A stretch of DNA of 64,000 bases. It comes from Tachypleus tridentatus (taxonomy: Eukaryota; Arthropoda; Merostomata; Xiphosura; Limulidae). Every line of letters starts with the position of its first letter. Positions within the stretch are counted from its first letter, which is position 1. Both the position numbers and the translations under genes were made by a program. The stretch is taken from contig NC_134829.1 of assembly GCF_004210375.1 (NCBI RefSeq), forward strand, positions 56,350,107 to 56,414,106. The letters run 5' to 3'. Positions 1,003 through 40,820 of the stretch are shown in pieces. A model generated the notes under the pieces. It searched no databases, was not told the origin of the DNA, and worked only from the letters and a program-made list of their open reading frames with translations.

Positions 1003-1075
1003 GTGCTTGTGGTGTAGTGGTTATCACATCCGCCTAACACGCGGAAGGTCCCAGGTTCGATCCCTGGCAGGCACA
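1003..1075 (+). tRNA. tRNA-Val (anticodon AAC), array copy 1
   Basis: This is a 73-nt canonical cloverleaf decoding valine codons during cytoplasmic translation. The acceptor stem is GTGCTTG paired with CAGGCAC (one T-G wobble), followed by discriminator A. The D arm is GTGT / loop AGTGGTTA / TCAC. The anticodon stem is TCCGC with GCGGA around the loop CTAACAC, so the anticodon is AAC. The T arm is CCAGG, loop TTCGATC, CCTGG. From memory it closely resembles animal tRNA-Val-AAC. There is no intron and CCA is not encoded. The four-T terminator follows directly. Copies 1-4 are identical, so this is the working form. Confidence 0.97.
1010..1064 (+). promoter_or_regulatory. Internal Pol III promoter of the tRNA-Val gene (A and B boxes)
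   Basis: The A box TGGTGTAGTGG lies at 1010-1020 and the B box GGTTCGATCCC at 1054-1064. Both fit the tRNA consensus (TRGCNNAGYNGG, GGTTCGANTCC) with minor A-box deviation. The same boxes sit at matching positions in the other copies. The A-rich scars of copies 5-7 fall between the boxes and change only their spacing or the D stem. Confidence 0.85.
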
Positions 1076-2936: not shown

Positions 2937-3009
2937 GTGCTTGTGGTGTAGTGGTTATCACATCCGCCTAACACGCGGAAGGTCCCAGGTTCGATCCCTG
3001 GCAGGCACA
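2937..3009 (+). tRNA. tRNA-Val (AAC), array copy 2
   Basis: Identical over all 73 nt to copy 1, with the same upstream context (ATCGCGAAACGCAG) and TTTT terminator. All stems pair. Predicted functional. Confidence 0.96.
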
Positions 3010-4871: not shown

Positions 4872-4944
4872 GTGCTTGTGGTGTAGTGGTTATCACATCC
4901 GCCTAACACGCGGAAGGTCCCAGGTTCGATCCCTGGCAGGCACA
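4872..4944 (+). tRNA. tRNA-Val (AAC), array copy 3
   Basis: Identical to copy 1 over 73 nt, TTTT terminator present. Predicted functional. Confidence 0.96.
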
Positions 4945-6806: not shown

Positions 6807-6879
6807 GTGCTTGTGGTGTAGTGGTTATCACATCCGCCTAACACGCGGAAGGTCCCAGGTTCGATCCCTGGCAGGCACA
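6807..6879 (+). tRNA. tRNA-Val (AAC), array copy 4
   Basis: Identical to copy 1 over 73 nt, TTTT terminator present. This is the last undamaged gene moving right along the array. Confidence 0.96.
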
Positions 6880-8741: not shown

Positions 8742-8814
8742 GTGCTTGTGGTGTAGTGGTTATAAAATCCGCCTAACACGCGGAAGGTCCCAGGTTCGAT
8801 CCCTGGCAGGCACA
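8742..8814 (+). tRNA. tRNA-Val (AAC), copy 5, D-stem damaged
   Basis: 73 nt, identical to copy 1 except at 8764-8767. There the D-stem 3' strand TCAC plus the following A has become TAAA plus A, so the D stem (GTGT/TAAA) cannot form. Anticodon, T arm and acceptor are untouched and TTTT follows. It is probably a transcribed but misfolding gene or a pseudogene. The altered bases coincide with the position where LINE tails join the tRNA elsewhere in the window. Confidence 0.85.
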
Positions 8815-10677: not shown

Positions 10678-10751
10678 GTGCTTGTGGTGTAGTGGTTATC
10701 AACATCCGCCTAACACGCGGAAGGTCCCAGGTTCGATCCCTGGCAGGCACA
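10678..10751 (+). tRNA. tRNA-Val (AAC), copy 6, one-base insertion in D arm
   Basis: 74 nt. One extra A at 10701-10702 turns TCAC into TCAAC at the 3' side of the D stem. The rest matches copy 1 and TTTT follows. The D-stem register is disturbed, so function is uncertain. The insertion lies at the LINE junction position. Confidence 0.83.
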
Positions 10752-12615: not shown

Positions 12616-12690
12616 GTGCTTGTGGTGTAGTGGTTATAAAAAATCTGCCTAACACGCGGAAGGTCCCAGGTTCGATCCCTGGCAGGCACA
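12616..12690 (+). tRNA. tRNA-Val (AAC), copy 7, A-rich insertion in D arm
   Basis: 75 nt. CACA after GGTTAT is replaced by six A at 12638-12643 (two bases longer), and the next stem has one C-to-T change (TCTGC, still pairing with GCGGA by a wobble). The D stem is destroyed; anticodon loop, T arm and acceptor are intact. Likely a pseudogene. The change sits at the LINE junction position. Confidence 0.83.
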
Positions 12691-14238
12691 TTTTAATATT
12701 TTGAACCATTCTTTTCTTTCAAATCGGATGGTGAGAACGTGGAACGATATTTTCTTCATAATATCTGTTTCAGAGGGTGAGACGGCTGAGAGATATCACA
12801 GAAGTTACCGAGTTTCCCCCTACACTTGTAACCACTTTCAGAAATTCGTGTGACTGTTGTGTGATAAATCAAAACAGGAACGTTATTACTTTTGAATATA
12901 ATGCGTGCACTGCTGCGACATTTGAAGTGATGAAACGACCTTCGCGTAATCATGTGACGTTCGACGAAGTATCTGACCAGCAAGTTACAACTTTTGGATA
13001 GAATGGGTTTATGAGTTTTATTTTTCTTAAATGCGTGAACAGTTTGAAACGTCGATGCACGCGACCTTAGTTGAAGATAAGTTAACGTACTTGCCAGGTT
13101 GTACAGGTAATATCTAGAGATGACGACTCCGTCAGTGTGTGTTGAGAACAACTCTTCATGCTGTGACAACTAATCACACTACATGTTTCATTCTTTAACC
13201 TATTCTTTTAAATTCCGGTCAGAACTATTGGATGGTTATGTGCGTTATCATCTCCAACTTACCAGTGACGGAAAAGAGGAAAGGCAATTCTACAACATCA
13301 TTCACCACCAACTATTTGATGTACTTAATTTTTACCGAACAGTGAAATTGTCGATCATATCCTAGCTCCTCCTACGTCTGAAAATGCTTACATGTTATTT
13401 CATTTGAATTGCGAATACACGCCCCTCAGAGAGCGACTCAAATGTCCTTACCACCATGTCTAGCCAGTCTGAAGAAAAGAAGTATCGTCCTCTTATAGAC
13501 AGCATTGTTTTCTTAAAGACTCCTTGTTCTGTTTATCCCTTTTTGTCTGATTTCTTTATTTTTATAACATTTCTTCACTTAGTAAAGATATTTTACGATG
13601 CTTAATGTCTTCTCGTCATGATCGAATCTCCTTTTTAATTACTTATTAAAAATTGTAATTAGTTCACTTGAATATAGTACAGACTAGACAGGTAAAACGA
13701 AATTACGATGCCAAGACCGGAGAATATTTGTTATTCTGAAGTGTTTCCTCCTTCTTGGTGCAGCTGGTTCATGTAAACGTTTTTCTTAAACAAGAATTCT
13801 TTGTTTTGGTTATGGAATTTTGTCGTGATAAACGATGTGTAACGTAGAGAGAGGACGATAGTCTCGAAGAGTAGATGGTTTTCGAAAATAGATGTTGCAT
13901 AACAGATAAGACATCTTCTGTACATTGGGCTTTATTCCACCGCTGTGATCTCCAACAACCCACAACTGTCAACGTACTATTACAACTTAAGCGTGTTTGG
14001 ACAAGGGTATAATTTTAGGAGTTTGAGAGTCACCATGCAACTTTGTCGTATTGAACACCTTAAACAAGTTTTGTGTGACAAGAAAACATCGGCTAGAGTG
14101 AAATCCCAGAATTGGTCACAAAATAACGAATATTAAATATTATTTAAGACGATCCCTAATTTTGTTAAGGGAATTTAATAGACGTATAAAATCGCTTATT
14201 ACGTTATCGTTTAATAATTCTGGTAAAAGAATACGTAT

Positions 14239-15788
14239 CTGCTACAAGATACGTGGCAGGGTGTATTGCGCAGGGTATCTCGTGTCTTGGTGTCGTGGCG
14301 ATTTCGTTCTTTGTCGCTACAGGGTAAATCTCTTGTGGTGAACTCCTTGGTGGCATCGGTGTTATGGTACCCGTTGAATATACTCCCGTAGCCAAGACAG
14401 TTTGAGGCTCGATTTCGCAAATGTATACTGGATTTTATTTGGCGGGGAGGTATACATAAAGTGGCATACGGTATTCTGATCCGGAGTTATGATTGTGGAG
14501 GTATCAACTTGGTTGATGTTAACACTCGTAAACTCGCATTCCGTTTGAAGTTGTTGCAGCGTTGTTTGGATGCTTCTTGTCCTTCCACCTTGCGACAACT
14601 TCTTTCTGGATTTTTTTCTTGTTATGGCAATCTCTCTTTGGGCTTTCGGATTCTTCAATGCCGTATTTTGCCACGTTTTGTGAAATCGTTACCTTTCTAT
14701 ATTCAGGAAATGTTTCATGCCTGGAAGGTTCTTCTTGGGGATAAAGGGATTGTCCCAGCTACTGTTTCTCCACAAATTTTTGATGAACCTTTGTTTTTCA
14801 ATCCGGCTATTGTTGATTTTCGCCACCGAACATTTCATTTTCCTGAATTTATTAACGCAGGTTTGGTTCAGGTCCGCCATTTATTGTACGAGGTGCTCCC
14901 TGCTTTTCTTCCGGTGGGGGCAGTGATTGAAATGTGTACGGACGCTGACCCGTTGGCCAATGTCCGCACAATTTTTCACATTTTCATATGCTCAAAGAGG
15001 CGTTGCCTGTGGACTGGTTGCCGGTTTTGTCCAACCAGCCGGCTCCTCTCCCATCGTCCACACGTGTTGTGGATTTATATTTTCTGGACCACTCTGATAA
15101 TCGAGTTCATTTTCAGGGTTTATCTGTGAAGCAACTGGTGGAACATTTACAGTTTTCACTCGCTACTATTTTCCCTGCTCCATTCTACTGGGGAGATATT
15201 GTTCCTCCTGGAGACTGGAAACGCATTCGTAAATACGCTTATTCTTCTTTTGTGGGTTTTTTTGTTTGTGATGTGGATTATTTACTGTGGTTGCGGGCGA
15301 TTACCACTAATGTCAAGCTGATACATATGGACAGACATCCCACAGGGTTGTGTACTTTCTGTTCCCAGGCGCCGGAAACCATAGACCATCTGTTTTTCCA
15401 ATGTCCTTTTGTACAGCCCTTGCGGTCATATGTATATAAATTATTGGCATTTTATTTTGGATGTCCCATATCAAACTGGGTATGGAGGAGATGCCTCTTA
15501 GTGGGATCTCATCCTTCGTTACCCAGGAGATGCTGGAACATATTCCGTTTGTTTACTAGTTTGGCACGTCAGGTTATATGTTCTGCTCGTTCAGTTTCTT
15601 TGGCACGAAATCGCGTAATTTATTTAATTTCCATGTTTAAAGTGCGTGTACGTAGACATATATATCTTCATTATCATAGATCTTTGTTACATAACTCATT
15701 AAAGGTTTTTTATTCTGTGTATTCTTATGTTGGTTGCTTGGTAACCCAAGGTGCCCAAGGTTATTTCTTGTGTACGTTGTTAAGATAA
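14239..15788 (+). pseudogene. LINE copy 1 ORF2 C-terminal fragment
   Basis: This is the C-terminal part of the LINE reverse-transcriptase protein, beginning after the RT active-site region. The frame is open from 14461 to about 15129, and then continues one base shifted (14988-15788) because one T is missing from a T run near 14971 relative to the full-length copy. It contains the C-terminal zinc-binding motif C-X2-C-X8-H-X4-C (GLCTFCSQAPETIDHLFFQC, about 15349-15405) and ends in GYFLCTLLR then TAA like the full-length copy. It lacks endonuclease and RT catalytic motifs, so it is dead on arrival. Confidence 0.85.
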
Positions 15789-16060
15789 GTTGTTATTTCA
15801 TTACATTTTTGTTACAATGAAAGATCCATTGATTTCTTGTTTGTTAATGTTCACTATAATATTTGTTGGATTACCTGCTGTTCCAATTACCTCTTTTATT
15901 TCTTTTTCCTTAATTTTATTAACTTTGTGGTAATTTTCAGCATGGTAATCTATAGAGTTATTGTTATATGCTAATTCATTAACTTGTGTTTTATTTGTTG
16001 TATTTCTGTGTATACCCCCTCGTTGAGGTGGGATAAATAAAGAGAAAAAAAAACAAAAAA
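14239..16060 (+). mobile_element. LINE copy 1: 5'-truncated Tx1-like non-LTR retrotransposon
   Basis: From about 14239 the sequence matches the full-length copy from about 19832 onward at roughly 95% or better through its 3' UTR (ending GGGATAAATAAAGAG plus an A-rich tail). The tail runs straight into the 3' part of a tRNA-Val gene at 16061. At the 5' side, array sequence stops at about 14232, some 340 bases short of where the tRNA insertion site should be, and about seven unmatched bases (ACGTATC) lie at the joint. This suggests 5' truncation with loss of target DNA. Confidence 0.9.
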
Positions 16061-16110
16061 ACATCCGCCTAACACGCGGATGGTCCCAGGTTCGATCCCT
16101 GGCAGGCACA
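16061..16110 (+). pseudogene. tRNA-Val 3' part between LINE copies 1 and 2
   Basis: Fifty bases match tRNA-Val nt 24-73 with one change (GCGGATGG for GCGGAAGG). It starts directly after the A-rich tail of LINE copy 1 and ends against the first bases of LINE copy 2 (TTTGGAAAGCGCC). It has the anticodon arm, T arm and B box, but no D arm or 5' acceptor strand. It is also the left copy of the ~50-bp target duplication made when LINE copy 2 inserted. Confidence 0.92.
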
Positions 16111-16253
16111 TTTGGAAAGCGCCGGTTTTCGTCATCGAGTGCAGACGTGTTTTTCGAGCTCCTGATTGCCTTAGTGTAAATTTAACAGCTAAGCCTAGTG
16201 AGCGTGTACTTCTTTTTTTTTGCTAGATTTTGCATTTTTCAAGTTGTTTGACG

Positions 16254-17435
16254 ATGTCTTCATCAACCAAGAAGGTCATGGAAGTTATGCGTCGTACTGT
16301 TTTCGTGGAAACGACAACTTCAAGCCATGGGGACGTTATCCATTCTGTTATTTCTACGTTTGGTGCTGCTTCGGTCACTGCTGTTGTTCCTCGCCCGGGT
16401 GGTTATGAGGTAACTTTTGTTCTTCCCGCAGATGTGGACCTGGCTATAGATGTTGGTCTAGTTGTCAATGGTGTACTTTGTTCGACTAATGGCGTCACTA
16501 AACGCACTATTACTGTGTCATTTATGGACGTCCCAGAATATATCGACGATGATATTATACTAAATAAACTTAAAGATTATGATTGTGAAGTGAAAAGCCC
16601 TATTGTGTGGAAGAGGGACCAGGGCATATACTTAGGTATACGCCATGTTCGTGTGTGTTTTAGTGAGAAGTGTATCTCTTTGCCGTACGTAGTGAAAGTT
16701 TTTTATCCTTTGGGCAAGGCAATAATGTTAAAAGTGAAGCATGATCGCCAGTCAAAAGTGTGTAATTTATGTTTGGGGGCGGATCATCTATATCGCGATT
16801 GCACCCAGTTTATATGCCGACATTGTCATATGCAGGGACACGTCCGTCAACGTTGTCCCAAGCTTGTTGTTCCTCGAACTTCCTCTAGTGACGACGCTGA
16901 AGTGGCCACGCCTACTACTTCTCGTGACGCTGCTGAAGTAGTCACGGCTGCTCCCTCTCGTGCAGTGCCTCATGATGTTGACACCATTTCTGTTTGTCCA
17001 CGCGTTGATTCGGAGGTTCCCCTTTCAAAGAAGGCTGCAGCTACCCATCGGGTGGTGGACGATGTTTCTGCCCGACGATCGACGGTTTCTGGTGGGGCCA
17101 GGAACGGGCAAGTAGTCACCCCCCTGCTGGAGGACGCATTTTTGATCGTCACTTCCCGCCACTTCCGGTTAGTGGTGAGAGTTCCGCCGGCGATGTGGAG
17201 GTGCCTCTTCCTCGTCGTTGGAGGTATGCTAGTGTGGTGGCAATGTCTCCTGGTGACACTTCTGAGAAGGGCAGTGGACGAAAACGGGTGTCGGACGTGC
17301 CAATACTACGGATATCTTGGGCGAATGCGAAGGCGGTGTCGCAGCCTTAAATGTGTTTTTTGTGACAGTTTGTTTGTTTCAGTTCGTGTAAGACTGTCAT
17401 TTATTGTTATTTTAACTTTGTGCATATTTGCTTAG
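16254..17435 (+). CDS. LINE copy 2 ORF1: RNA-binding protein with two CCHC zinc knuckles
   Basis: 393 codons from ATG at 16254 (context GACGATGT; an upstream in-frame extension lacks ATG). In LINEs of this type ORF1 protein binds the element RNA and helps form the ribonucleoprotein that returns to the nucleus. Residues about 1-165 have no clear fold to me. About 170-201 hold two adjacent C-X2-C-X4-H-X4-C knuckles (CNLCLGADHLYRDC and CRHCHMQGHVRQRC). A Ser/Ala/Val-rich low-complexity stretch follows (about 205-330), and the end is basic with further cysteines (CRTCQYYGYLGRMRRRC). The frame is open throughout, unlike ORF2. The stop at 17433 is about 80 bases before the ORF2 start. Confidence 0.85.
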   Translation: MSSSTKKVMEVMRRTVFVETTTSSHGDVIHSVISTFGAASVTAVVPRPGGYEVTFVLPADVDLAIDVGLVVNGVLCSTNGVTKRTITVSFMDVPEYIDDDIILNKLKDYDCEVKSPIVWKRDQGIYLGIRHVRVCFSEKCISLPYVVKVFYPLGKAIMLKVKHDRQSKVCNLCLGADHLYRDCTQFICRHCHMQGHVRQRCPKLVVPRTSSSDDAEVATPTTSRDAAEVVTAAPSRAVPHDVDTISVCPRVDSEVPLSKKAAATHRVVDDVSARRSTVSGGARNGQVVTPLLEDAFLIVTSRHFRLVVRVPPAMWRCLFLVVGGMLVWWQCLLVTLLRRAVDENGCRTCQYYGYLGRMRRRCRSLKCVFCDSLFVSVRVRLSFIVILTLCIFA

Positions 17436-17513
17436 ATCTTTACATTTATTCTTGTTATTTTTGTGTTTGTGACAGTTTCCTTTCAATTCTTGTACCTTTA
17501 CTTTCTCTTTAGC

Positions 17514-20500
17514 ATGGTATATTTACTAGGGGTGGGAGTTTTGAATTGTAATGGGTTGCGTAATGTTAGTAAGCTGGCTTATTACCTGGATTACTTTGTT
17601 ACTAATTTTGATGTTGTTTGTTTACAGGAAACGTTTTTCACTGATAATTTTTTATGATGTCGTTCTGAAATTTTGGCCAGGTGTAGTTTTTTTAATAATT
17701 CTACTTCTGGCCGACAAGGGGTTGCCATATTGGTACAGCAGTTTTTGTGTGATAATGTTACATTCGTTTCTTCTGATGGGGTGGGTAGGGTTCTGACAGT
17801 CAAATTCAGTTTCGAGTCTTTGTCTTATCTGTTATCATCTGTGTACGCTCCTCGCGATATCTCCGAGCGACGGGGAATTTTTCCAAAACTTGGAGTATTG
17901 TTTGGATGGTTGCACGGGATTGCTTGTTGTGGGAGATTTTAATTGTGTGGTGGATGTGGCACGCGATCGATTTCCGGTCCGTTTCTACCGTGACGCCAGC
18001 CGTTCGGCTTTTGTACAGTTTCTTAATACGTTTGATTTACTTGATGCGCATTCACTCATATCGCCGACTACACCTGGTTTCACATGGAAGCGTTTTGTTA
18101 ATGGTGAGATGATGTCGTCTCGTATTGATAGGGTTTTGCTTTCTTCTACCTTGCAGGGGACTGTCCAACGTTTACGTACGTTGTGGTTTCCTGCTACAGA
18201 TCACGCTTTATTGGGCTTCGACCTTACTCTGCGACCAATTGTCAGAGCTCCTAATTTCTGGCACTTCAATAACCAGTTATTGAGGGATGCCGAATATGTG
18301 AAAGCCATTAAGCTGTTGATCGCCAGAAGTCGTAGTTGGTCAGTCTATGGGACTGATAAAATTAAGTGGTATGAACAATTGAAATGCGCGTTCCGTTTAC
18401 TTACCGAGCGTTATTCGATTCTTCGTGCGCGGGCATCCCGTTCTCGCAAATGTCAGCTTGAGTCGTCCATCAATCGTGAGCTTCGAAAACTGTCCCGTTT
18501 CCTGGTAGGTCTAAGGTCAAATTGTATGAACTTGAAGATGCATTGGAGACTTTGGATCACGATACCATAGAGGGGCGAGGATTCGATCTCATATTCGTTG
18601 GTTTGAGGAGGGTGAGAGATCTACGTCTTACTTTCTTCGTATGGAAAAGGTCCGTCAAAGCAGAATTGAGTTTCGATCCATGCTCACTGATAGGGGTGTG
18701 GAGGTGTCCGGTGTGGAAGATATAGCTGCTGTTTTACATCAGTATTATTCCGCACTGTACTCTAAGGATATCGTTCTGCAGGCAGACATAGATTTAGTTC
18801 TCTCATTTGTTGATCGAACTCTTTCCAGTGAACAAGCTAATATTTGTGATGCTCCATTCACGGTTCCGGAAGTTCTCGCTGCTTTAGACAGTTTACCGCT
18901 GGGCAAATCTCCTGGTATGGATGGTTTAACCTCCGAATTTTACAAATATTTTCTCCCTCTTTTTGTTGACGACTTTTATCTGTCTTGTCTCAACTGTTCC
19001 ACTCTCCACAGTTGCTCCGTACAATGTGTTCTGGGGTATTGTTCCTATCCCGAAAGGCGGGGATCGACGGTTGGCGGCTAACAGCCGGCCTTTGACATTG
19101 CTTTGTACTGACTATAAGCTTTTGGCCAAAGTGCTGGCTCGTCGCCTTTCGTCTGTGATCTCCAGTTTAGTTTCAGATGACCAATCCGGGTGTATACCTG
19201 GACGGGACGTTGCTGATACTCCGTTAACACTCGTTTTGCTATTGCAGTCTTTAGCACGTACCGGCCAGGGTGGAATCTTTTTGAAGCTCGATCAGATGCA
19301 AGCCTTTGATCGGGTGGCCTATGACTATCTATTTCAACTTCTTCTGCGTATGGGTTTTGGTTCTACTTTTGTTCATTGGGTTCGTCTTTGCTATACTTCT
19401 ATTTCTAGTTGTGTAAAGTTTAATGGATTTCTCACTAATGATTTTGCTATTACTCGGGGTATTCGTCAAGGATGCCCAATGTCTGCTCTACTTTACGTTC
19501 TCAGTGTCGAACCGTTACGAAATATGTTAGTCCATAATGTACATATTACTGGTATTGGTGGTGATGTGCTACTCACCAAGCCTTCACTTACTTATCAGCA
19601 TGCTGATGATACCACCTTAACCTTACGAGACGCCGAATCTTTGCCGCATGTGTTGGATGTCTGCCAAACTTTTGGCAAAGCTACTGGTGGGAAGATCAAC
19701 TGGACCAAGAGTCAGGGTTTGTGGGTTGGGTGTTTGGCCTCTTCTGCAGACTTCGTCCTTGGTGAGTTGAGAATTTCCCAGGATCCTATTCGGATTTTGG
19801 GAATAGTTTTCCACTCTAATTTCGATGTCATGCTGCAAGATACGTGGCAGGGTGTATTGCGCAGGGTATCTCGTGTCTTGGTGTCGTGGCGATTTCGTTC
19901 TTTGTCGCTAAAGGGTAAATCTCTTGTGGTGAACTCCTTGGTGGCATCGGTGTTATGGTACCCGTTGAATACACTCCCGTTGGCAAGACAGTTTGAGGCT
20001 CGATTTCGCAAATGTATACTGGATTTTATTTGGCGGGGAGGTATACATAAAGTGGCATACGGTATTCTGATTCGGAGTTATGATTGTGGAGGTATCAACT
20101 TGGTTGATGTTAATACTCGTAAACTCGCATTCCGTTTGAAGTTGTTGCAGCGTTGTTTGGATGCTTCTTGTCCTTCCACCTTGCGACAACTTCTTTTTGG
20201 ATGTTTTTCTTGTTATGGTAATCTCTCTTTGGGCTTTCGGATTCTTCAATGCCGTATTTTGCCACGTTTTGTGAAATCGTTACCTTTCTATATTCAGGAA
20301 ATGTTTCATGCCTGGAAGGTTCTTCTTGGGGATAAAGGGATTGTCCCAGCTCCTCTTTCCCCACAAATTTTTGATGAACCTTTGTTTTTCAATCCGGCTA
20401 TTGTTGATGTTCGCCACCGAACATTTCATTTTCCCGAATTTATTAACGCAGGTTTGGTTCAGGTCCGCCATTTAATGTACGAAGTGCTCCCTGCTTTTCT

Positions 20501-21380
20501 TCCGGTGGGGGCAGTGATTGAAATGTGTACGGACGCTGACCCGTTGGCCAATGCCCGCACAATTTTTTCACATTTTCATATGCTCAAGGAGGCGTTGCCT
20601 GTGGAGTGGTTGCCGATTTTGTCTACCCAGCCGGCTCCTCTTCCGTCGTCCACATGTGTTGTGGATTTATATTTTCTGGACCAGTCTGATAATCGAGTTC
20701 ATTTTCAAGGTTTATCTGTGAGGCAACTGGTGGGACATTTACAGTTTTCACTCGCTACTAATTTCCCTGCTCCATTCTACTGGATGGATATTGTTCCTCC
20801 TGGAGACTGGAAACCCATTCGTAAAAACGCTTATTCTTCTTTTGTGGGTTTTTTTGTTTGCGATGTGGATTATTTACTCTGGTTGCGGGCGTTTACCACT
20901 AATGTCAAGCTGATACACATGGACAGACATCCCACAGGGTTGTGCATTTTCTGTTCCCAGGCGCCGGAAACCATAGACCATCTGTTTTTCCAATGTCCTT
21001 TTGTACAGCCCTTGTGGTCATATGTATATAAATTATTGGCGTTTTATTTTGGATGTCCCATATCAAACTGGGTATGGAGGAGATGCCTCTTAGTGGGATC
21101 TCATCCTTCGTTACCCAGGAGATGCTGGAACATATTCCGTTTAATTACTAGTTTGTCACGTCAGGTTATATGTTCTACTCGTTCAGTTTCTTTGGCACGA
21201 AATCGCGTCATTCATTTAATTTCCATGTTTAAAGTGCGTGTACGTAGACATATTCATCTCCATTATCAGCGATCATTGTTACATGACTTATTAAATGTGT
21301 TTTATTCTGTGTATTCTTATGTTGGTAGCTTGGTAACCCAAGGTGCCCAAGGTTATTTCTTGTGTACGTTGCTAAGATAA
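17514..21380 (+). pseudogene. LINE copy 2 ORF2: endonuclease-reverse transcriptase, frame-broken
   Basis: This encodes the enzyme for target-primed reverse transcription. The N-terminal APE-type endonuclease motifs are visible: GVLNCNGLRN (17535), CLQET (17620s), GDFNC (17932), SRIDRVLL (18118) and TDHALLGFDL (18199). The RT follows: PLTLLCTDYKLLAKVLARRL, GCIPGRD, KLDQMQAFDRV, GIRQGCPMSALLY and QHADDTTL (catalytic HADD at 19599-19610, where Y/FADD is usual). Near 20942-20997 is the C-terminal C-X2-C-X8-H-X4-C. The frame changes at about 17660, 17890, 18520-18640 and 18960, so the copy is not translatable as one protein. The stretch from 18963 to the TAA at 21378 is open for 805 codons. The insertion is probably recent given its similarity to copy 1. 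Confidence 0.85.
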
Positions 21381-21652
21381 GTTGTTATTTCGTTATATTT
21401 TTGTTACCAATGAAAGGTCCATTGGTTTCTTGTTTTGTTAATGTTCACTATAATGTTTGTTGGATTGCCTGCTGTTCCAATTTCCTCTTTTATTTATTTT
21501 TCCTTAATTTTATTAACTTTGTGGTAATTTTCAGCATGGTAATCTTTAGAGTTATTGTTACATGCTAATTCATTAACTTGTGTTTTATTTGTTGTATTTC
21601 TGTGTATACCCCCTCGTTGAGGTGGGATAAATAAAGAGAAAAAAAACAAAAA

Positions 21653-21701
21653 ACATCCGCTAACACGCGGAATGTCCCAGGTTCGATCCCTGGCAGGAAC
21701 A
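21653..21701 (+). pseudogene. tRNA-Val 3' part after LINE copy 2
   Basis: Matches tRNA-Val from nt 24 to 73 with a missing C (CCGCTAACAC), an A/T change (GGAATGTCC) and GGAACA for GGCACA at the end. It starts directly after the LINE tail and is followed by TTTT and then normal array spacer. It is the right copy of the ~50-bp target duplication of LINE copy 2. Confidence 0.9.
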
Positions 21702-23520
21702 TTTTATTATTTTAAACCATTCGTTTTCTTTCAAATCGGATGGTGAGAAAGTGGATCGATATTTTCTTCATAATATCTGGGTCAGAGCGTGAGACGGATG
21801 AGAGATATCACAGAAGTTACCGAGTTTCCCCTACACTTGTAACCACTTTCAGAAATTCGTGTGACTGTTGTGTGATAAATCAAAACAGGAACGTTATTAC
21901 TTTTGAATATAATGCGTGCACTGCTGCGACATTTGATGTGCTGAAACGACCTTCGCGTAATCATGTCACGTTCGACGAAGTATCTGACCAGCAGGTTACA
22001 ACTCTTGGATAGAATGGGTTTATGAGTTTTATTTTTCTTAAACGCGTGAATAGTTTGAAACGTCGATGCACGCGACCTTATTTGAAGATAAGTTAACGTA
22101 CTTGCCAGGTTGTACAGGTAATATCTAGAGATCACGATTCCGTCAGTTTGTGTTGAGAACAACTCTTCATGCTGTGACAACTAATCACACTACATGTTTC
22201 ATTCTTTAACCTATTCTTTTAAATTCCGGTCAGAACTATTGGATGGTTATGTGCGTTATCATCTCCAACTTACCAGTGACGGAAAAGAGGAAAGGCAATT
22301 CTACAACATCATTCACCACCAACTATTTGATGTACTTAATTTTTACCGAACAATGAAATTTTCGATCATATCCTAACTCCTTCTACGTCTGAAAATGATT
22401 ACATGTTACTTCATTTGAATTGGGAATACACGCCCCTCAGAGAGCGACTCAAATGTCCTTACCACCATGTCTAGCCAATCTGAAGAAGAGAAGTAGCGTC
22501 CTCCTATAGACAGCATTGTTTTCTTCAAGACTCCTTGTTCTGCTTATCCCTTTTTGTCTGATTTCTTTATTTTTATAACATTTCTTCACTTAGTAAAGAT
22601 GTTTTACGATGCTTAATGTCTTCTTGTCATGATCGATTCTCCTGTTTTACGTACTTATTAAAAAATTGTATTTAGTTCACTTGAATATAGTACAGACTAG
22701 ACAGGTAAAAAGAAATTACGATGCCAAGACCGGAGAATATTTGTTATTCTGAAGTGTTTCTAGGTGCAGCTGGTTCATGTAAACGTTTTTCTTAAACAAG
22801 AATTCTTTGTTTTCGTAATGGCATTTTGAACGTGAAGAACGATTTGTTACATAGAGAGAGGACGATAGTCTCGAAGAGTAGATGGTTTTCGAAAAGAGAT
22901 GTGGCATAATAGATAAGACATCTTCTGTACATTGGGCTTTATTCCACCGCTGTGATCTCCTCAAACCACAACTGTCAACGTACTATTACAACTAAAGCGT
23001 GTTTGGACAAGGTTATCATTTTAGGAGTTTGAGAGTCACCATGCAACTTTGTCGTATTGAACACCTTAAACAAGTTGTGTGTGACAAGAAAACATCGGCT
23101 ATAGTGGAATCCCAGAATTGGTCACAAAATAACGAATATTAAATATTATTTAAGACGACCCCTAATTTTGTTAATGGATTTATTAGACGTATAAAATCGC
23201 TTATTACGTTATCGTTTAATAATTCTGATAAAAAAATTAATGCTATGAAAATGTTCTGTTCAGTTTTTGACAGAGAGAGAAAAGACTGAGGAAAGAAAAC
23301 TTTGCGTTTTGCACGTTTAAAAGCAATTAAACGAGGTGTGAAAACGTTTGATACTGTGGGCTCGATAAAGTCGTTGAAAGACACGTTAGCACATTGGAAA
23401 AATACTTTTGGCTTTGGTAGACAAGGAGAGTGTTATTTTTTCTTACTGTTAGACGTTAAGCTGTCATTGTATTTTTTTGTTTGTTTAGAGTGCGAAATAT
23501 ATATTTTGAAACGAGAATAA
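21702..23520 (+). repeat. Array unit to the right of LINE copy 2, mildly diverged
   Basis: Collinear with the 1.935-kb unit from just after the tRNA to about 85 bases before the next tRNA. Scattered substitutions and small deletions (for example loss of CTCCTTCTT near 22760) make it clearly more diverged than the left array copies. The tRNA that should follow at about 23600 is replaced by LINE copy 3. Confidence 0.92.
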
Positions 23521-25901
23521 CAATGTGTAACTTTAGTTTTGCTTCTCCAATCTACAGAACGTATAGGACGGGGGGGGGATCTTTTTGAAACTCGATCAAG
23601 TGAAAGCTTTTGAGTGAGTGAACCATGACTTTTCAACTTCTGGTGCAAGTGGATTTTAAGTACTCTTTTATTATGTGGGCAAAACTATGTTATACTGATA
23701 TTTCTAGCTGTATTAAGTTTAATGGTTCTCTCACTGATGGTTCTCCTTATGTCAGGGTATTCGTCAAGGCTGCAAAATGTCTACTTTGCATTTTGTTCTC
23801 AGTGTGAACATGTTGAGAAATATGTTGGTTCTTAATAATCAGATTATCGGTATGTTTACTCAACATGCTGGCGACACTACACAGGTTCCGATTCTTTGCC
23901 ACACGTTTTGCATGTTTGTAGTATTTTTGGTCGGGCTTCGGGTGGTAGGATTAATTGGACAAAGAGTCAAGTTCTCTGAGTTGGGAGCTTGGTCTCTTCT
24001 GATGAGTATGTCCTAGGAGAGTTGAAAATTGCCCAGGTTCCTATTCGGATTTTGGGTATTGTTTTTCATTTTTAATACGATGTTATGCTGCAGGATAAGT
24101 GGCAGCGAGTTTTGTGCAAAGTCTCTAGTATTCTGGTCTCTTGGCGATATCGTTCCCTGTCTCTTAAGGGTAAATCTATCGTGGTGAATGCTTTGTTGGC
24201 GTTAGTTTTGTGGTATTCATTGCACATCCTCCCATTGCCACAGCAGTTTGAAGCTCGGTTTCGTCAATGTGTATTAGATTTCGTGTAACGGGGTGATATT
24301 CACAAGGTTGGTTATTGGATCTTGACCAAGAATTTTTATGGTAGGGGTATCAATTTGTAGATATTCACGTTCGTAAACTTGCTTTTCGCTTGAAATTGCT
24401 GCAGAGATGTTTGGATGGTTCTTGTCCGTCGCCTTTGTGGCAACTTCTTTTAGGTTTTCTCTCTTGTTGTGGTGAACTCGCATTGGGATTTCGAGCTCTT
24501 CAATGCCGGATTTTGCCGAGTTATGTGAAGGTCTTACCAATGTTTATTCAGAATATGTTTCATGCATGGAAGGTACTACTTAGGGATAAAGGGCTTGACC
24601 CTGTTTCTCTTTCATCAGATGTTTTCGACGAACCATTGTTTCTAAATCTTGTTCTTGTTGATGCTCGGTCACACACGTTTTATTTTCCTGAATTTATTAA
24701 AGCAGGATTGGTCCTTGTGCGACACTTATTGTATGAAGTGCTCTCAGGATTTCTCCCTGTGGAGACAGTTGTTGAAATGTTTATTGATGTCGATATGTCG
24801 TAGAATGTCAATATCATTTTTTCACATCTCACTTCCTTGACGGTTGCATTGCCTGAAGATTGGCTGGCACTCACGTCTACTCAGCCAGCTCCACTGTCTT
24901 CGATACAGTGTGAAATAGACTTGTACTTTGTGGACTCTTCTGATCAACGGGTCCATTTTAGGGGATTAACCTGTTATTTGAATTGTTCACTTGCTCATCA
25001 TGTCTCTGCTCCATCTTTTTGGGGGAATATTGTTCCTCCAGACGATTGGACACTTATTCACAAATCTACCTTTTCATCGTTTGTGGGTTTTGATGTCCGT
25101 ACCGTGGATTATTTGTTATGGTTGCGAGCGGTGACTACTAGTGTTAAGTTGGTACACATGGATAGGCATCCCACGGGGTTGTGCACGTTTTGTTCACTAA
25201 CGCGGAAAACCATTGACCATCTGTTTTTCATGTGTGCTTCTGTCCAGCCCATGTGGTCCTATGTGATATGCTTTACTGGAATTTTAGTTTGGATGTCCTA
25301 TCTCCAACTGGGTTGGGAGGAGATGCCAGTTAGTGGGATCTCATCCTCTCTTACCTGGCCGATGTTTGAATATTTTTCACTTATTAACTAGTTTTGCGCG
25401 GCTTGTTATCCAATTTACGAGGTCTGTTCAGTTAGCACGCAATCGCAAACTTCATTTAATTTCGTTCTATAAAGTGCGTTTACGCAAACATATTCATTTA
25501 CATTATCATAGATGTGTGTTACATGACTCGTTAAGTGTCTTTTATTCTTTGTATCACTATAACGGTCGGTTGGTTACACAGAGGGTACACGGATACCTGT
25601 CATGTGCTTTGTTAAGATAAGATGCGTTCTTTTTTACAATTGAGTTTTATTTTTTATCACAGGGTTCCATTCTTTTCTTTGTTTTATTAATGTTTTTCGT
25701 GTAATTTGATTTAAATACTTACCGCTAACTATTACTTCTTTTATATTTTCTAACACATTTTATACCTTTTGTTGTAATTTTTAGCAAGTTGGTATCCTGC
25801 AATGTTTTCTTTCCATATGCTAATTATTTAACTGGTGTTTCATTTGATGTACTTTTGTTTTAACCCCCTTCTTTCAGGTGCGCTGAATAAAGAGAAAAAA
25901 A
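23521..25901 (+). mobile_element. LINE copy 3: old, 5'-truncated relative of the same LINE
   Basis: Aligns with LINE copy 2 from about 19210 to its 3' end, at roughly 70-75% identity by eye. It starts inside the RT domain. The 3' UTR keeps the CCCCC...TGAATAAAGAG end followed by eight A, then a tRNA-Val 3' part at 25902. It is the same lineage and the same insertion point as copies 1 and 2 but much older. About 85 bases of array sequence before the tRNA are missing at its 5' joint. Confidence 0.88.
23580..25620 (+). pseudogene. LINE copy 3 ORF2 remnant (RT to C-terminal zinc motif)
   Basis: The frame is split into at least six pieces. RT motifs survive in part: LFLKLDQVKAF-like near 23583, VRVFVKAAKCLLCILFSV near 23750, and QHAGDTTQ near 23860, where the catalytic box is HAGD. 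The H at the first position is shared with copy 2. The C-terminal zinc motif CTFCSLTRKTIDHLFFMC lies near 25185-25236, and the protein end SCALLR then TAA at 25618 matches the family. Non-functional. Confidence 0.85.
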
Positions 25902-25951
25902 ATATCCAACTAACACGTGGAAAGTCCCAAGTTCGATCCCTGGCAGGCACA
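25902..25951 (+). pseudogene. tRNA-Val 3' part after LINE copy 3
   Basis: Matches tRNA-Val nt 24-73 with several changes (TATCCAACTAACACGTGG for ACATCCGCCTAACACGCGG). The anticodon loop CTAACAC and the T arm are kept. It begins directly after the LINE A tail. Array spacer, more diverged again, follows. Confidence 0.88.
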
Positions 25952-26084
25952 TTCGTATTTCTTAAATTATTTGTTTTCTTTTAAATCAGTTGGTAAGAGC
26001 GTGGAACGAGGTTTTGTTCGTAATATCAGTGACACAGCGTGAGACGACTGTGAGTTATCACACGATTTACCGAGTTTCTCCTAT
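25952..26084 (+). repeat. Diverged array unit, left part before the Penelope-like insertion
   Basis: Matches unit sequence just downstream of the tRNA (TTTTAAATCAGTTGGTAAGAGCGTGGAACG, compare AAATCGGATGGTGAGAACGTGG) as far as ACCGAGTTTCTCCTAT. It is interrupted at 26084 and resumes at 29655 with the same 16 bases. Confidence 0.85.
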
Positions 26085-27060
26085 TTATATGCAAAAACAG
26101 CTCGTTTTGGCTGAGAAAACACTTTTACATAGAAGAGCGAACAACGTTTCGACCTTCTTCGGTCATCGTCAGGTTCACAAAGAAAGAGGTAACTGACCGG
26201 AAGCTGACCACATGTTTGAAAGGGGTTGTGTAACTGTGTGTCGAAATGTAGAGGGCGGTATTAGATGTTTGAATATATAATTTTATTTATTTTATTAATA
26301 TAGGTATAAAGGCGTTCCTTTATATTGGTTTATTTTGGGTATAAGTTGTTGTATAAGTAAGGATTCTTTAATTTTGCGTTTGTTTATGTTTGTTCCTTTA
26401 TTTAGTATTTGAGTGTTTTCTATGGTTATGTTGTGTTTATTTGACTTGCAGTGTTCGAAAACGTGTGAAGGTGACTTTTTATGTTCTTTGAATCTGGTTT
26501 CCATTTTCTACTTGTTTCTCAATATAGAAGTCGTGGCAGTTATCACATTGTATTTTATAAATAATGTTGGTGTGGTGTTTGTCAGTGTAGTTTTACATAG
26601 TATAGACCTCAGTTTTGTGCCGGGTTTTTGAATAAATTTGGTATTAATTGGAATGTCATATTTTGTTACTAGTTTTTGCCAAATGTTGTTTATTTGTTTG
26701 CTGATGTCAGGAATGTATGGTATACAGGAGTATATGGTTTCGTGGTTTTTTGATTCGTGAGCTGTATTTACTTTAGTTGGTTGATTTTGCTTTCTGTCTA
26801 GGTGTGTGCGTATAATGTTTTCTACGGTTTGTGGAGGAAACTTATTGATGTTGATGAAGTATTGTTTTATTTTGTCTAATTCATCGTTAATTTTATCTGG
26901 TGAGCATAGTTTTATGGCTGTGTTTATTTGGTTTCTTAGTATGTTGAGTTGGTTTCTTAGTATATTCTGTAAATTTTGGATAATGTTTGTGTATGTATTA
27001 AATTTTTTTGAAAGTTTTACCTTTACAAAATTAGGGGTTAGTTGTTCTTTTCTACATTGT
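26085..27060 (-). mobile_element. Inverted left arm of the Penelope-like element
   Basis: Reverse complement of the right arm's 3' end. 26085-26280 mirrors about 29430-29640, and 26290-26960 mirrors the GIY-YIG region and the stretch before it (from about 28760). The minus-strand frame 26295-26504 encodes METRFKEHKKSPSHVFEHCK and ends GTPLYLY like the right arm. Beyond about 26960 it no longer matches the right arm. Confidence 0.85.
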
Positions 27061-27502
27061 TAAATAAAATAATTTTTTTTTACAGAAAACGTTTACAGAA
27101 AAGTTTTTACAGAAAAAACTACTGAAAGCCATGTTGAACACAAAATACAAAGAACTACATGACTTATAAAAACAAAAAATGAATCTAGACCATCAACTGG
27201 CATGCTGCATTAAACCAGAGATTTACGGACTTATACAACAAAACATAAACCAAATCAATACTTAAAACGACAGAGACAAAAAGATCTGCCACAACAAAAA
27301 ACTAGAAAAACTAAGATGCAAACAACAGAAAAGACACCAAAACGACAAACCGTTGACTAACCTCATAATTAACAGATCCGACCGTCAATAAAACACAGAC
27401 GAGAAACAACTACTTAACAAAGGACTCAACTTCGCTATAGCACCTAGGTACATTCCAACCATAGAAATCAAAACATGTTTAGAAGACCTAGCCAGGAGAC
27501 TT

Positions 27503-28774
27503 GTGATACTTTCTACAGAGAACAAAAACAATGAAACAACCAAAAACAACCAACAGAAAGAAGACAACTTAGATAATTTTATTGACATCCAACAGCCAAC
27601 CTTCCCAGGTAAAATTACAAATTTATATTTTCCAGAAACACCTAAAAACAACATCTTAAACGATTTTTTCAAAGAATTTTCTCACAAAACCATCAACATA
27701 ATTTCACAAAACAGAAAACTGAAAAACAACCTTACAAAAAGAGACATTAATTGCATTAAAAACCTAAAACAAGACAAAAACATAACAATTCTAAAAGCAG
27801 ATAAAGGTAACGCTATAGTCATAATGAACACGAATGAATACATCCAAAAATGAATAACATCCTATCAGACACGAACAAATTTAAACCTATACACACAAAT
27901 CCAACAAAGACACACGAGACGCAACTGAACAAATTACTACTACAAATGAAAAAAAGCCAACACAATTTCACAAACACTTTATTCCTACCTGCGTAAAACC
28001 GACTCACGCACACCGCAAATATACGGCATCCCCAAACCTCATAAACCAGATTGCCCATTACGACTAATAATGTCCACATATGAATCGTTTAATTACAACC
28101 TTGGTAAATACATAGCATGGGCATTCTCCAAATAATTAACATCAGCCAGCTCATTTATCAAAGACTCTTTTAATTTCAAGTCTAATCTAAATCAACTTAA
28201 TCATAAAGCCTTAATGGCCAGTTTCGATGTTATATCCCTCTTTACAGAAGTTCCAACCACTGAAGCCTGCAAGATAGCCTTAGAACTCTATATCCGAGAC
28301 CCTAACCCAACTATAGAAATTCCCAGTAACCAGTTAGCAACCCTCATAGAATTCACCACGATAAAGACAAACTTCATGTTCAACAACCAAAACTATATAC
28401 AAACAAATGGCCTAAGCATGGGCAACCCAGTATCACCAGTTCTAGCCAATATTTTTATGACACAAGTTGAAACACAAACAATTAACACAGCATTACATCC
28501 ACCACTATACTGGTACAGATATGTAGATGACACGGTTGCGGGATTCAAATCTACAGAACACATACTTAATTTTTTCAATCACATTAACTCTATACATCCC
28601 AACATCAACTTCACATGTAAACAGGAAGAAAACAAACAAATATCATTTCTTAACCTCAAAATTACAAGAACTGATACACAATTTCAAACAGAAATCCACC
28701 GAAAAATCACCCATACTGGACTATACATTCCTTGGGACTCAGCACATGAAACAAAACAAAACTCAACATACTAA
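27503..28774 (+). pseudogene. Penelope-like reverse transcriptase, degenerate
   Basis: Two open stretches carry the RT. 27503-27853 contains the N-terminal motif ILKADKGNAIVIMN. 28214-28774 contains SFDVISLFTEVP, GLSMGNPVSPVLANIFM and the catalytic YRYVDDTVAG, followed by FLNLKITR. These are characteristic of Penelope-type RTs, which are related to telomerase RT. In life the enzyme copies element RNA using primers made by the GIY-YIG nuclease. The copy is broken and not expressible as one protein. Confidence 0.85.
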
Positions 28775-29093
28775 GAAACCAAATAAACACAGCCATAAAA
28801 CTATGCTCACCAGATAAAATTAACGATGAATTAGACAAAATAAAACAATACTTCATCAACATCAATAAGTTTCCTCCACAAACCGTAGAAAACATTATAC
28901 GCACACACCCAGACAGAAAGCAAAATCAACCAACTAAAGTAAATATAGCTCACGAATCAAAAAACCACGAAACCATATACTCCTGTATACCATACATTCC
29001 TGACATCAGCAAACAAATAACCAACATTTGGCAAAAATTAGTAACAAAATATGACATTCCAATTAATACCAAATTTATTCAAAACCCGGCACA

Positions 29094-29417
29094 AAACTGA
29101 GGTCTATACTATGTAAAAACTACACTGACAAACACCACACCAACATTATTTATAAAATACAATGTGATAACTGCCACGACTTCTATATTGGAGAAACAAG
29201 TAGAAAAATGGAAACCAGATTCAAAGAACATAAAAAGTCACCTTCACACGTTTTCAAAAACTGCAAGTCAAATAAACACAACATAACCATAGAAAACACT
29301 CAAATACTAAATAAAGAAACAAACATAAACAAACGCAAAATTAAAGAAGCCTTACTTATACAACAACTTAAACCCAAAATAAACCAATATAAAGGAACGC
29401 CTTTATACCTATATTAA
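29094..29417 (+). pseudogene. Penelope-like GIY-YIG endonuclease domain
   Basis: The frame reads TKLRSILCKNYTDKHHTNII, then YKIQCDNCHDFYIGET, and continues SRKMETRFKEHKKSPSHVF to a stop after GTPLYLY. The IIYK...FYIG pair is the GIY-YIG signature, and the CDNC cysteine motif and R..ETRFKEH are as in Penelope-family nucleases. The domain nicks DNA to prime reverse transcription. It is separated from the RT by frame breaks, so it is a fossil. Confidence 0.83.
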
Positions 29418-29654
29418 TAAAATAAATAAAATTATATATTCAAACATCTAATACCGCCCTCTACATTTCGACACACAATTACACAACCCCTTTCAAACAT
29501 GTGGTCAGCTTCCGGTCAGTTACCTCTTTCTTTGTGAACCTGACGATGACCGAAGAAGGTCGAAACGTTGTTCGCTCTTCTATGTAAAGTGTTTTCTCAG
29601 CCCAAACGAGCCGTTTTGCATATAAATTTCTCAACAAGTGGGTTTCTTGTCATC

Positions 29655-31958: not shown

Positions 31959-32056
31959 AATGCTTTTGGTACTTAATAAATATTTCCATATTTGGGATTA
32001 AGTAAGAAAAGAAATTTTTAATGGAAACCATTAATAAAATCACTATACATATATAT

Positions 32057-32338
32057 GTAGCTAAGCCTGCCACACAATATTTATAATGTAGCTAAGCCTG
32101 CCACACAAGATTTATATATGTAGCTAAGCCTTCCACACAAGATTTATATATGTAGCTAAGCCTTCCACACAAGATTTATATATGTAGCTAAGCCTCTCAC
32201 ACAAAATTTATATATGTAGCTAAGCCTCCACAAAAAATTTATATATGTAGCTAAGCCTTCCACACTATATTTATATATGTAGATAAGCCTGACACACAAT
32301 ATTTATATATGTAGCTAAGTCTGCTACACAATATTTTA
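32057..32338. repeat. Minisatellite, about 9 copies of a 32-bp unit
   Basis: Unit form GTAGCTAAGCCTTCCACACA followed by AGATTTATATAT. Copies vary at the CTGCC/CTTCC/CTCTC position. Confidence 0.93.
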
Positions 32339-35600: not shown

Positions 35601-35810
35601 AATAATTTATTCAACGTCACTCAAATAGTATTTAAATTGGTTTTGCAATAACATTTTATAGCTAAATATTTAACTCTGTAAACGACATGAAAACAGAAAT
35701 CAAATTCATAGAAAATTATAATAAAGAAAAAAGCAAAGTTGGAGTCAGTACTTACCTAATAAACAAGGTTACACTACATATCAAAATCTGCTTCATTTCA
35801 AAAGTAGAAA

Positions 35811-36465
35811 CACTAAATTCAGAACATAATAAATTGTACAATATTATACTGTAAGATTAGACTAACACTAAATTCAGAACATAATAAATTGTACCATATT
35901 ATACTGTAAGATTAGACTAACACTAAATTCAGAACATAATAAATTGTACAATATTATACTGTAAGATTAGACTAACACTAAATTCAGAACATAATAAATT
36001 GTACCATATTATACTGTAAGATTAGACTAACACTACATTCAGAACAAAATAAATTGTACCATATTATACTGTAAGATTAGACTAACACTAAATTCAGAAC
36101 AAAATAAATTGTACAATATTATACTGTAAGATTAGACTAACACTAAATTCAGAACAAAATAAATTGTACAATATTATACTGTAAGATTAGACTAACACTA
36201 AATTCAGACATAATAAATTGTACCATATTATACTGTAAGATTAGACTAACACTAAATTCAGAACAAAATAAATTGTACAATATTATACTGTAAGATTAGA
36301 CTAGCACTAAATTCAGAACAAACTAAATTGTACAATATTATACTGTAAGATTAGACTAACACTAAATTCAGAACAAAATAAATTGTACAATATTATACAG
36401 CAAGATAAGACTCACACTAAATTCAGAACAAAATAAATTGCACAATATTATATAGAAAGATTAAA
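35811..36465. repeat. Minisatellite, about 12 copies of a 55-bp unit
   Basis: Unit begins ACTAAATTCAGAACATAATA, continues AATTGTACAATATTATACTG and ends TAAGATTAGACTAAC. Copies alternate between CATAATA/CAAAATA and TACAATA/TACCATA variants, and decay at the right end. Confidence 0.95.
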
Positions 36466-40560: not shown

Positions 40561-40820
40561 AAGAATAACGATTTGGGTGTTAGACATATAGAAGGACAAG
40601 AATAGAGATTTGGGTGTTAGACATATAGAAGAACAAGAATAACAATTTGGGTGTTAGATATATAGAAGGACAAGAATAGAGATTTGGGTGTTAGGTATAT
40701 AGAAGGACAAGAATAGAGATTTGGGTGTTAGATATATAGAAGGAGAAGAATAACGATTTGGGTGTTAGATATATAGAAGAACAAGAATAGAGATTTGGTT
40801 GTCAATTCGTTAGCAAGACT
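40561..40820. repeat. Minisatellite, 7 copies of a 37-bp unit
   Basis: Unit AAGAATAGAGATTTGGGTGT followed by TAGATATATAGAAGGAC. The last copy switches to TCAATTCGTTAGCAAGAC. Confidence 0.93.

Follow-up and report, generated by a model that had tools for sequence, protein, structure and literature searches.

A Tx1-like LINE family of the horseshoe crab Tachypleus tridentatus that probably inserts at a near-constant position inside RNA polymerase III genes

The window analysed here is the whole stretch C5:56350107-56414106 (64,000 nucleotides) of the 2.17-Gb Tachypleus tridentatus assembly (G000), in which contigs are labelled C1, C2 and so on and loci carry the prefix L. It contains three copies of a Tx1-like long interspersed nuclear element (LINE) of the L1 superfamily, which probably targets the interior of RNA polymerase III (Pol III) genes in general: transfer RNA (tRNA) genes, 5S ribosomal RNA (rRNA) genes, 7SL genes encoding the RNA of the signal recognition particle (SRP), and tRNA-derived short interspersed nuclear elements (SINEs). 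The range of targets, the position and the orientation of the insertions can be read directly from the sequence. Behind them we infer two further steps, namely guidance of the nick and a jump of the reverse transcriptase (RT) onto a second RNA.

Within the window, A-rich LINE tails meet tRNA-Val at three places. Two of them, 16060/16061 and 21652/21653, continue with ACATCCGC, that is, with nucleotide (nt) 24 of the tRNA; at the third, 25901/25902, the tRNA is diverged and alignment places the junction at nt 26. All three LINEs share the orientation of the tRNA. Copy 1 (14233..16060, start approximate; forward strand, as for the other features of this paragraph) is 5'-truncated, and its 5' end adjoins the array spacer ~321 bp upstream of the expected tRNA start, ~344 bp of target being absent. 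Copy 2 (16114..21652) is full length and terminates in AATAAAGAG plus an A-rich tail. It is flanked by a duplication of the target, whose 5' copy is the tRNA-Val 3' part that follows the tail of copy 1 (nt 24-73, at 16061..16110) and whose 3' copy comprises tRNA-Val nt 24-73 and a T-run (21653..21705); the TTT of the tRNA terminator (16111..16113) abuts copy 2 directly, and the two duplicated parts differ in sequence. Copy 3 (23528..25901, start approximate), 5'-truncated and decayed, is followed by a diverged tRNA-Val 3' part (25902..25952). Since copies 1, 2 and 3 differ in truncation and in identity (copy 1 is 95.9% and copy 3 70% identical to copy 2), they represent three separate insertions and not one that was duplicated. 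The first-pass annotation had described a LINE inserting at one fixed nucleotide of tRNA-Val. Its three junctions are real and lie in tRNA orientation, two of them at nt 24 and the third at nt 26, while the specificity for tRNA-Val dissolves in the genome at large.

The census of targets covers the 3' flanks of all 100 exact tail matches listed (contigs C1-C10), which belong to a larger total and are not a random sample; with at most two mismatches, the tail pattern occurs at 505 places, against 145 for a reversed control, which gives a rough figure of ~360 copies. Pol III type sequence adjoins 93 of the 100 tails. tRNA genes contribute Val (29), Leu(AAG/TAG) (12), Leu(CAG) (4), Asp (2), Met (2) and Ser (1), and the remaining targets are 5S (12), 7SL (2) and the tRNA-derived SINE1 (17) and SINE2 (12). 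By a count made by hand from the census table and the 7SL alignment, 89 of the 100 lie at most 3 nt from the common site of their gene type; shuffled flanks reached a maximum score of 22. The references were letters taken from loci, that for SINE1 being a composite assembled from flanks. The 3' part itself served as reference in the case of Leu(CAG), Met and Ser, where the site is deduced from the anticodon spacing (8 nt; 10 in L063 if CA does not belong to the tail). In sense orientation, the insertion sites are tRNA nt 24-26, 5S nt 26|27 and 7SL nt 35|36, the first retained base lying 7-10 nt before the anticodon in tRNAs, at nt 27 in 5S and at nt 36 in 7SL.

At the two 7SL junctions (L020 and L021) the flank corresponds to 7SL from SRP nt 36 onwards, with 120 of 121 bases identical. 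Rfam returned no SRP match for this fragment alone; a genome search with RF00017 located both junctions in an SRP array on C3, as alignment to L188 confirmed. Two tails, L027 (Leu) and L088 (Met), lie in the gene at more than 3 nt from the common site, and the SINE matches L093 and L098 are off site (L098 being weak, with a score of 25 against the null maximum of 22). No Pol III target was recognised at L013, L019, L069, L077, L080, L082 and L085; by eye, the flanks of L077 and L082 look like a decayed SINE or tRNA. A specificity for tRNA-Val alone is rejected, as tRNA-Val makes up 29 of the 100 places; taken literally, the refuting outcome named at first pass, a majority of copies outside tRNA-Val, has occurred. 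Nevertheless, 64 of the other 71 places lie in other Pol III type sequence, nearly all of them on site, which makes the finding broader and not void.

Further full-length 5' ends follow tRNA-Leu(CAA) and tRNA-Phe, and others a tRNA 3' part read as Ile(TAT). The last of these, at L179 and L180, is presumably an intron-bearing tRNA-Ile(TAT), an assignment made by comparing the 3' part at L196 with the human gene; a reading as tRNA-Met was dropped, since the L196 3' part fits Ile(TAT) instead. Counted genome-wide, exact junctions between an A-tail and 5S nt 27 number 63 (control 0) beside 115 uninterrupted 5S sites (at most one mismatch), an occupancy of approximately 35%. Junctions between an A-tail and tRNA-Val number 46, one of them a look-alike (control 0), beside 298 uninterrupted sites (both with at most two mismatches), a ratio that is likewise approximate. 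Several of the target genes form large tandem arrays of a single small-RNA gene: tRNA-Val on C5 and C13 (unit ~1.9 kb), 7SL on C3 (~3.8-4 kb), 5S on C8, C9, C10 and C19 (mostly ~1.84 kb) and tRNA-Leu on C4.

At the other end of the element, the 5' ends in most gene types begin at the T-run of the gene, mostly behind a complete copy of it. From 42 fetched 5' ends, 26 were parsed, excluding 11 in 5S, 4 in Leu(CAG) and L125. The duplicated part ends at TTTT in 18 of these 26, and in 14 of the 26 at the first TTTT past the 3' site. Duplication lengths are 54 bp in Val, 62 in Asp, 77-79 in Leu, 104 in Leu(CAA), intron included, and 266 in 7SL, a span that a fixed stagger cannot produce; the common end point of the duplications is the place where Pol III stops. 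ARAGORN detected a tRNA upstream of the element at 19 of 30 scanned 5'-junction loci. Its 11 misses comprise five loci in 5S, a Leu(CAG) flank, the Ser locus, where the junction lies inside the gene, the Leu(CAA) locus, where the gene is complete by eye, with its intron, and two Ile loci and one Val locus, where only the 3' part is present. At both 7SL loci a complete SRP gene stands upstream, and the T-run rule still holds for the 5'-truncated 7SL copies. In the Asp case, the short trailer of the 5' copy is unlike that of the 3' copy, which may be explained by RNA from a sister gene and equally by later change.

In 5S genes the 5' end takes a different form. All 11 of those seen consist of 5S nt 1-20 followed by the element's own GAAAGCGCCGGTTCTCGTC, which equals 5S nt 21-39 (with a single change in one copy). 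The identical 19 nt, often with one additional G, start the copies in tRNA genes too, where the target cannot supply them, and the element must therefore carry a piece of 5S. In copy 2 of the window these first 19 nt (16115..16133, forward strand) show one C-to-T change relative to 5S rRNA nt 21-39, with which most other copies seen agree fully. From this 5S-derived start, source copies are likely to reside in 5S arrays.

A likely mechanism can be proposed. The endonuclease would be brought to the gene by the initiation complex of Pol III, or by nascent transcription, with help from a loose motif. It would nick the template strand at ~30 bp from the gene start, and reverse transcription of the element's A-tailed RNA would take place at the nick. 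On reaching the end of the element RNA, the RT would jump onto the primary transcript of the target itself, at its 3' U-tail, and copy back. As the copied RNA would come from the very gene being cut, the new DNA end would be homologous to the gene start and could join it seamlessly, so that the gene would again be complete, terminator included. For 5S targets, this homology would be provided by the 5S-derived 19 nt with which the element itself starts, and no jump would be needed. The full proposition, that Pol III transcription itself leads the LINE to its target, that the nick falls at a set distance past the start and that the nascent transcript serves as a second template, a typical tRNA or 7SL insertion thereby rebuilding an intact gene, is put forward tentatively.

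The main rival for the 5' step, a serious possibility though short of a probable one, is a long staggered cut, in which the bottom strand is nicked near nt 25 and the top strand at the terminator T-run, yielding a true target-site duplication whose 5' copy would not derive from RNA. L1-type endonucleases prefer T-run sequence. A TT/AAAA motif is given in PMC13174262. The T-run at most 5' junctions, as well as the Ser copy with its ordinary 19-bp duplication, agree with such a cut. The range of lengths, from 54 to 266 bp, speaks against it, as does the base that follows TTTT at the 5' junctions, which may be A, C or G and not A alone. In tRNA-Leu(TAG), moreover, a nearer internal TTTT/A is skipped, although those copies possibly stem from one insertion. 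For the RT jump there is a precedent in mammals, where U6 RNA of full length and sense orientation is joined to the 5' ends of L1 elements via template switching or RNA ligation (PMC13174262).

Several observations weigh against a jump onto the target transcript. Twelve of the 26 parsed 5' ends deviate from the first TTTT: in four Leu(TAG) cases the end coincides with a TTTT further on, six tRNA-Val ends on C13 finish in TTTAT, TTTATT or TTTGTT, which are T-rich without TTTT, the Ser duplication is situated inside the gene and the Phe end falls in an A-run. At L168 (Ser), L179 and L180 (Ile) and L185 (Val), as well as in the Leu(CAG) copies and in copy 1 of the window, the gene upstream is only partial or missing. 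Additionally, the 3' site used for most of the parsed 5' ends is an assumption based on gene type and does not come from the same copy.

With regard to the nick, part of the information resides in the local sequence. According to a rather unlikely alternative, the endonuclease would read a loose motif like GGTTAAGGC^GCYGG directly, which occurs by chance in tRNA D arms, 5S and tRNA-derived SINEs, and Pol III would be irrelevant. Direct recognition of DNA is attributed to site-specific LINEs in PMC3706591, and two results count for this alternative and against guidance by Pol III: out of 6030 positions, the true 5S site is the one ranked first by a position matrix built from six tRNA and SINE sites, and a matrix trained on 5S puts the Leu site first among 130. 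In a leave-one-out test, Leu, Ser, SINE1 and SINE2 also fit. Direct DNA recognition, through this sequence component, may thus do much of the work. The Val and Asp sites, in contrast, misfit, with 25% and 3% of window positions scoring equally high and 5S-trained ranks of 15/116 and 83/114, respectively, and the 7SL junction ranks 1375/6566 by position matrix; yet the endonucleases of Val copies are 96.5-99.4% identical to those of 5S, Leu and Asp copies. A short motif alone does not explain the Val, Asp and 7SL sites. Furthermore, the 5S-derived core with which the element itself begins was found to carry insertions at 0 places, although 161 such 5' ends exist, which suggests that the local 19 bp are insufficient, with age and array copying as confounders.

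What all targets share is a position 24-36 nt into a Pol III gene. The best common rule found is the distance from the presumed Pol III start, with the junction at 27 in 5S, at 36 in 7SL and at ~30-36 in tRNAs if leaders of 5-10 nt are assumed. That the leader lengths are assumed counts against this rule. From this shared position we infer guidance of the nick by the Pol III complex.

A single family underlies most of these gene targets. Endonuclease DNA was compared for 21 copies located in two Val arrays, two kinds of Leu gene, Asp and 5S. Its identity amounts to 96.5-99.9% across targets and to 97.1-100% for copies sharing a target, and copies from different targets are intermixed in the tree. 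Endonucleases of the Ser and Leu(CAA) copies are 95.6-99.0% identical to these, and that of the Phe copy 93.2-95.5%. The 7SL copies, which are 5'-truncated, are linked to the family by their 3' part only, over which they are 94.7-95.5% identical to copy 2; L197, a locus of one of them, accordingly holds no endonuclease. At L193 and L194 the tails were located by alignment and not by the exact pattern, and L195 gave no element match. By 3'-part identity to copy 2 there are at least three lineages, at ~92% or more, ~84% and ~70%. The ~84% lineage (Leu and one SINE) and the ~70% lineage (SINEs, and window copy 3 in Val) use the same insertion site, which makes the targeting behaviour look old. 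The existence of these lineages, with SINE copies mostly in the last, is what could be expected if several LINE families, each with one RNA-gene target in the manner of Mutsu, Dewa and Keno, merely resembled one family. This is nonetheless improbable, given that first-lineage endonucleases from Val, Leu, Asp and 5S copies resemble one another across targets as closely as they do within a target and that the Ser and Leu(CAA) endonucleases fall close to them.

Duplication within arrays has to be considered when these copies are counted. Flank clustering shows that many array copies duplicate one insertion, a point against reading each as an event, and near 57.6 Mb on C5 the tails recur with the same spacing as in the window's block of three LINEs, in inverse orientation; the block therefore seems to have been copied, and array copies are not countable as independent events. 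That the whole pattern is an artefact of one insertion per array, spread by duplication without real target preference, is nevertheless extremely improbable: near-identical copies do occur in the C5, C4 and 5S arrays, but single-linkage clustering of gene-external flanks resolves the 100 listed junctions into 41 groups across contigs, 35 of them of Pol III type, and the SINE copies alone form 20 groups with at most two off site, so that flank clustering already refutes it as a full explanation.

By its predicted domains, the element is an L1-superfamily LINE with an endonuclease of apurinic/apyrimidinic endonuclease (APE) type. The first open reading frame (ORF1; 16230..17435, forward strand; 401 amino acids from a mechanical start) has two CCHC-like knuckles by eye and no significant match in Pfam. 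ORF2 carries the APE-type endonuclease at its N terminus (17530..18250, forward strand), with matches to PF03372 (9.7e-12) and, in PDB, to the L1 endonuclease 2v0r (2.9e-14); its frame is broken in copy 2 and open over 239 amino acids in, for instance, L138. The RT and a C-terminal zinc region follow at 18963..21380 on the same strand (RVT_1, 8.2e-30; zf-RVT, 6.4e-9), and among solved structures the nearest to the RT is human L1 ORF2p (1.7e-35, versus 3.9e-10 for R2). These features are in line with the first-pass reading. The chelicerate host proposed there is likewise confirmed, as a horseshoe crab, by coagulin genes, with 19 matches in the genome and 0 in 14 control genomes. Membership of the Tx1 group is plausible and compatible with the ORF2 features; the target trait of the Tx1 clade, to which Mutsu belongs, is a multicopy RNA gene or repeat, and it is present in the 93 listed tails that join Pol III type sequence. 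At the 5' end of the element, no ribozyme was matched in Rfam and folding was no better than that of shuffles (z -0.65); at the 3' end, folding against shuffles gave z -0.64.

The window opens with a tandem array with a unit of ~1935 bp and one tRNA-Val(AAC) per unit, its seven genes being recognised by ARAGORN, Rfam RF00005 and their spacing. The first is intact (1003..1075, forward strand), and the other six lie at 2937-3009, 4872-4944, 6807-6879, 8742-8814, 10678-10751 and 12616-12690. The genes at 12616-12690 and 10678-10751 carry minor alterations at the very point of insertion (TATAAAAAATCTGCC in place of TATCACATCCGCC; an additional A), which may be footprints of tail-only insertions. 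Elsewhere, L194 (C11:57975150-57975750) contains tRNA-Phe 3' parts with bare A-runs between them, as from repeated near-zero-length insertions at one site. Downstream in the window, an element between inverted arms (26124-29588; arms of 384 bp, 98% complementary) with an RT-like ORF at 28214-28774 looks by eye like a Penelope-like element within the array spacer. Short tandem repeats occupy 35809-36467, 40561-40802 and 32050-32336, with units of 55, 37 and 32 bp, respectively.

The site-specific LINEs known so far read a single DNA sequence, and those known to be guided by Pol III land beside the gene. The horseshoe-crab family joins a broad Pol III range with a near base-level position inside the gene, often leaving the tRNA or 7SL gene complete. 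The duplication of 54-266 bp preserves the interrupted gene, and the family may illustrate how a parasite persists in essential genes without breaking them. If the RNA jump is true, it would be a natural case of an RT restoring the gene it interrupts, that is, of RNA-templated repair, with a bearing on the persistence of selfish elements in essential genes and on the harmless targeting of inserted DNA. The steering of a LINE endonuclease by the Pol III complex in an animal also becomes testable.

Among known systems, the R2 and R1 elements of ribosomal DNA produce transcripts that carry 5' target-gene sequence, aiding 5' joining, and R2 has an endonuclease of a different type. Their target differs, and the horseshoe-crab RT matches L1 ORF2p far better than R2. 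Closer in their choice of multicopy small-RNA genes are three elements of zebrafish, listed in PMC3706591 as Mutsu in 5S, Keno in U2 small nuclear RNA (snRNA) and Dewa in the tRNA-Leu spacer. Like Mutsu, a non-LTR (long terminal repeat) element in 5S rRNA genes, the horseshoe-crab family is found in 5S, with its 63 A-tail junctions; unlike Mutsu, which that text lists for 5S only, it has 12 of its 100 listed tails in 5S and 81 in other Pol III type sequence. Dewa and Keno have one listed target each, and Dewa sits in the spacer, whereas the LINE described here lies inside the tRNA. The same text describes Dada elements, which also insert inside tRNA and snRNA genes; these, however, are DNA transposons with 6-7 bp duplications and mostly one gene type per family (PMC3706591).

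In searches of open-access PubMed Central, covering listings and passages of a few papers, no report was found of one LINE family inside several classes of Pol III genes. A broad range is also seen in TRE5-A, TRE3, NLTR-A and NLTR-B of social amoebae, L1-group LINEs that, according to PMC5911963, serve tRNA genes generally, TRE5 also using 5S, and for which contact of the TRE5 ORF1 protein with TFIIIB is described. The use of many different Pol III genes by one family is a TRE5-like trait of the horseshoe-crab LINE. The amoebal elements, as given there, land outside the gene, at a distance of 2-64 bp on its upstream side or 40-150 bp on its downstream side (PMC5911963), in contrast to the position inside the gene (89 of 100 listed tails at most 3 nt from the site) and the gene regeneration seen here. 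Finally, the U6/LINE-1 chimeras, as presented in PMC13174262, likewise consist of a full-length sense Pol III RNA whose 3' end is fused to a LINE 5' end. Those chimeras lie at ordinary L1 sites, whereas in the horseshoe crab the RNA would match the gene that is hit, and the join would rebuild that gene.

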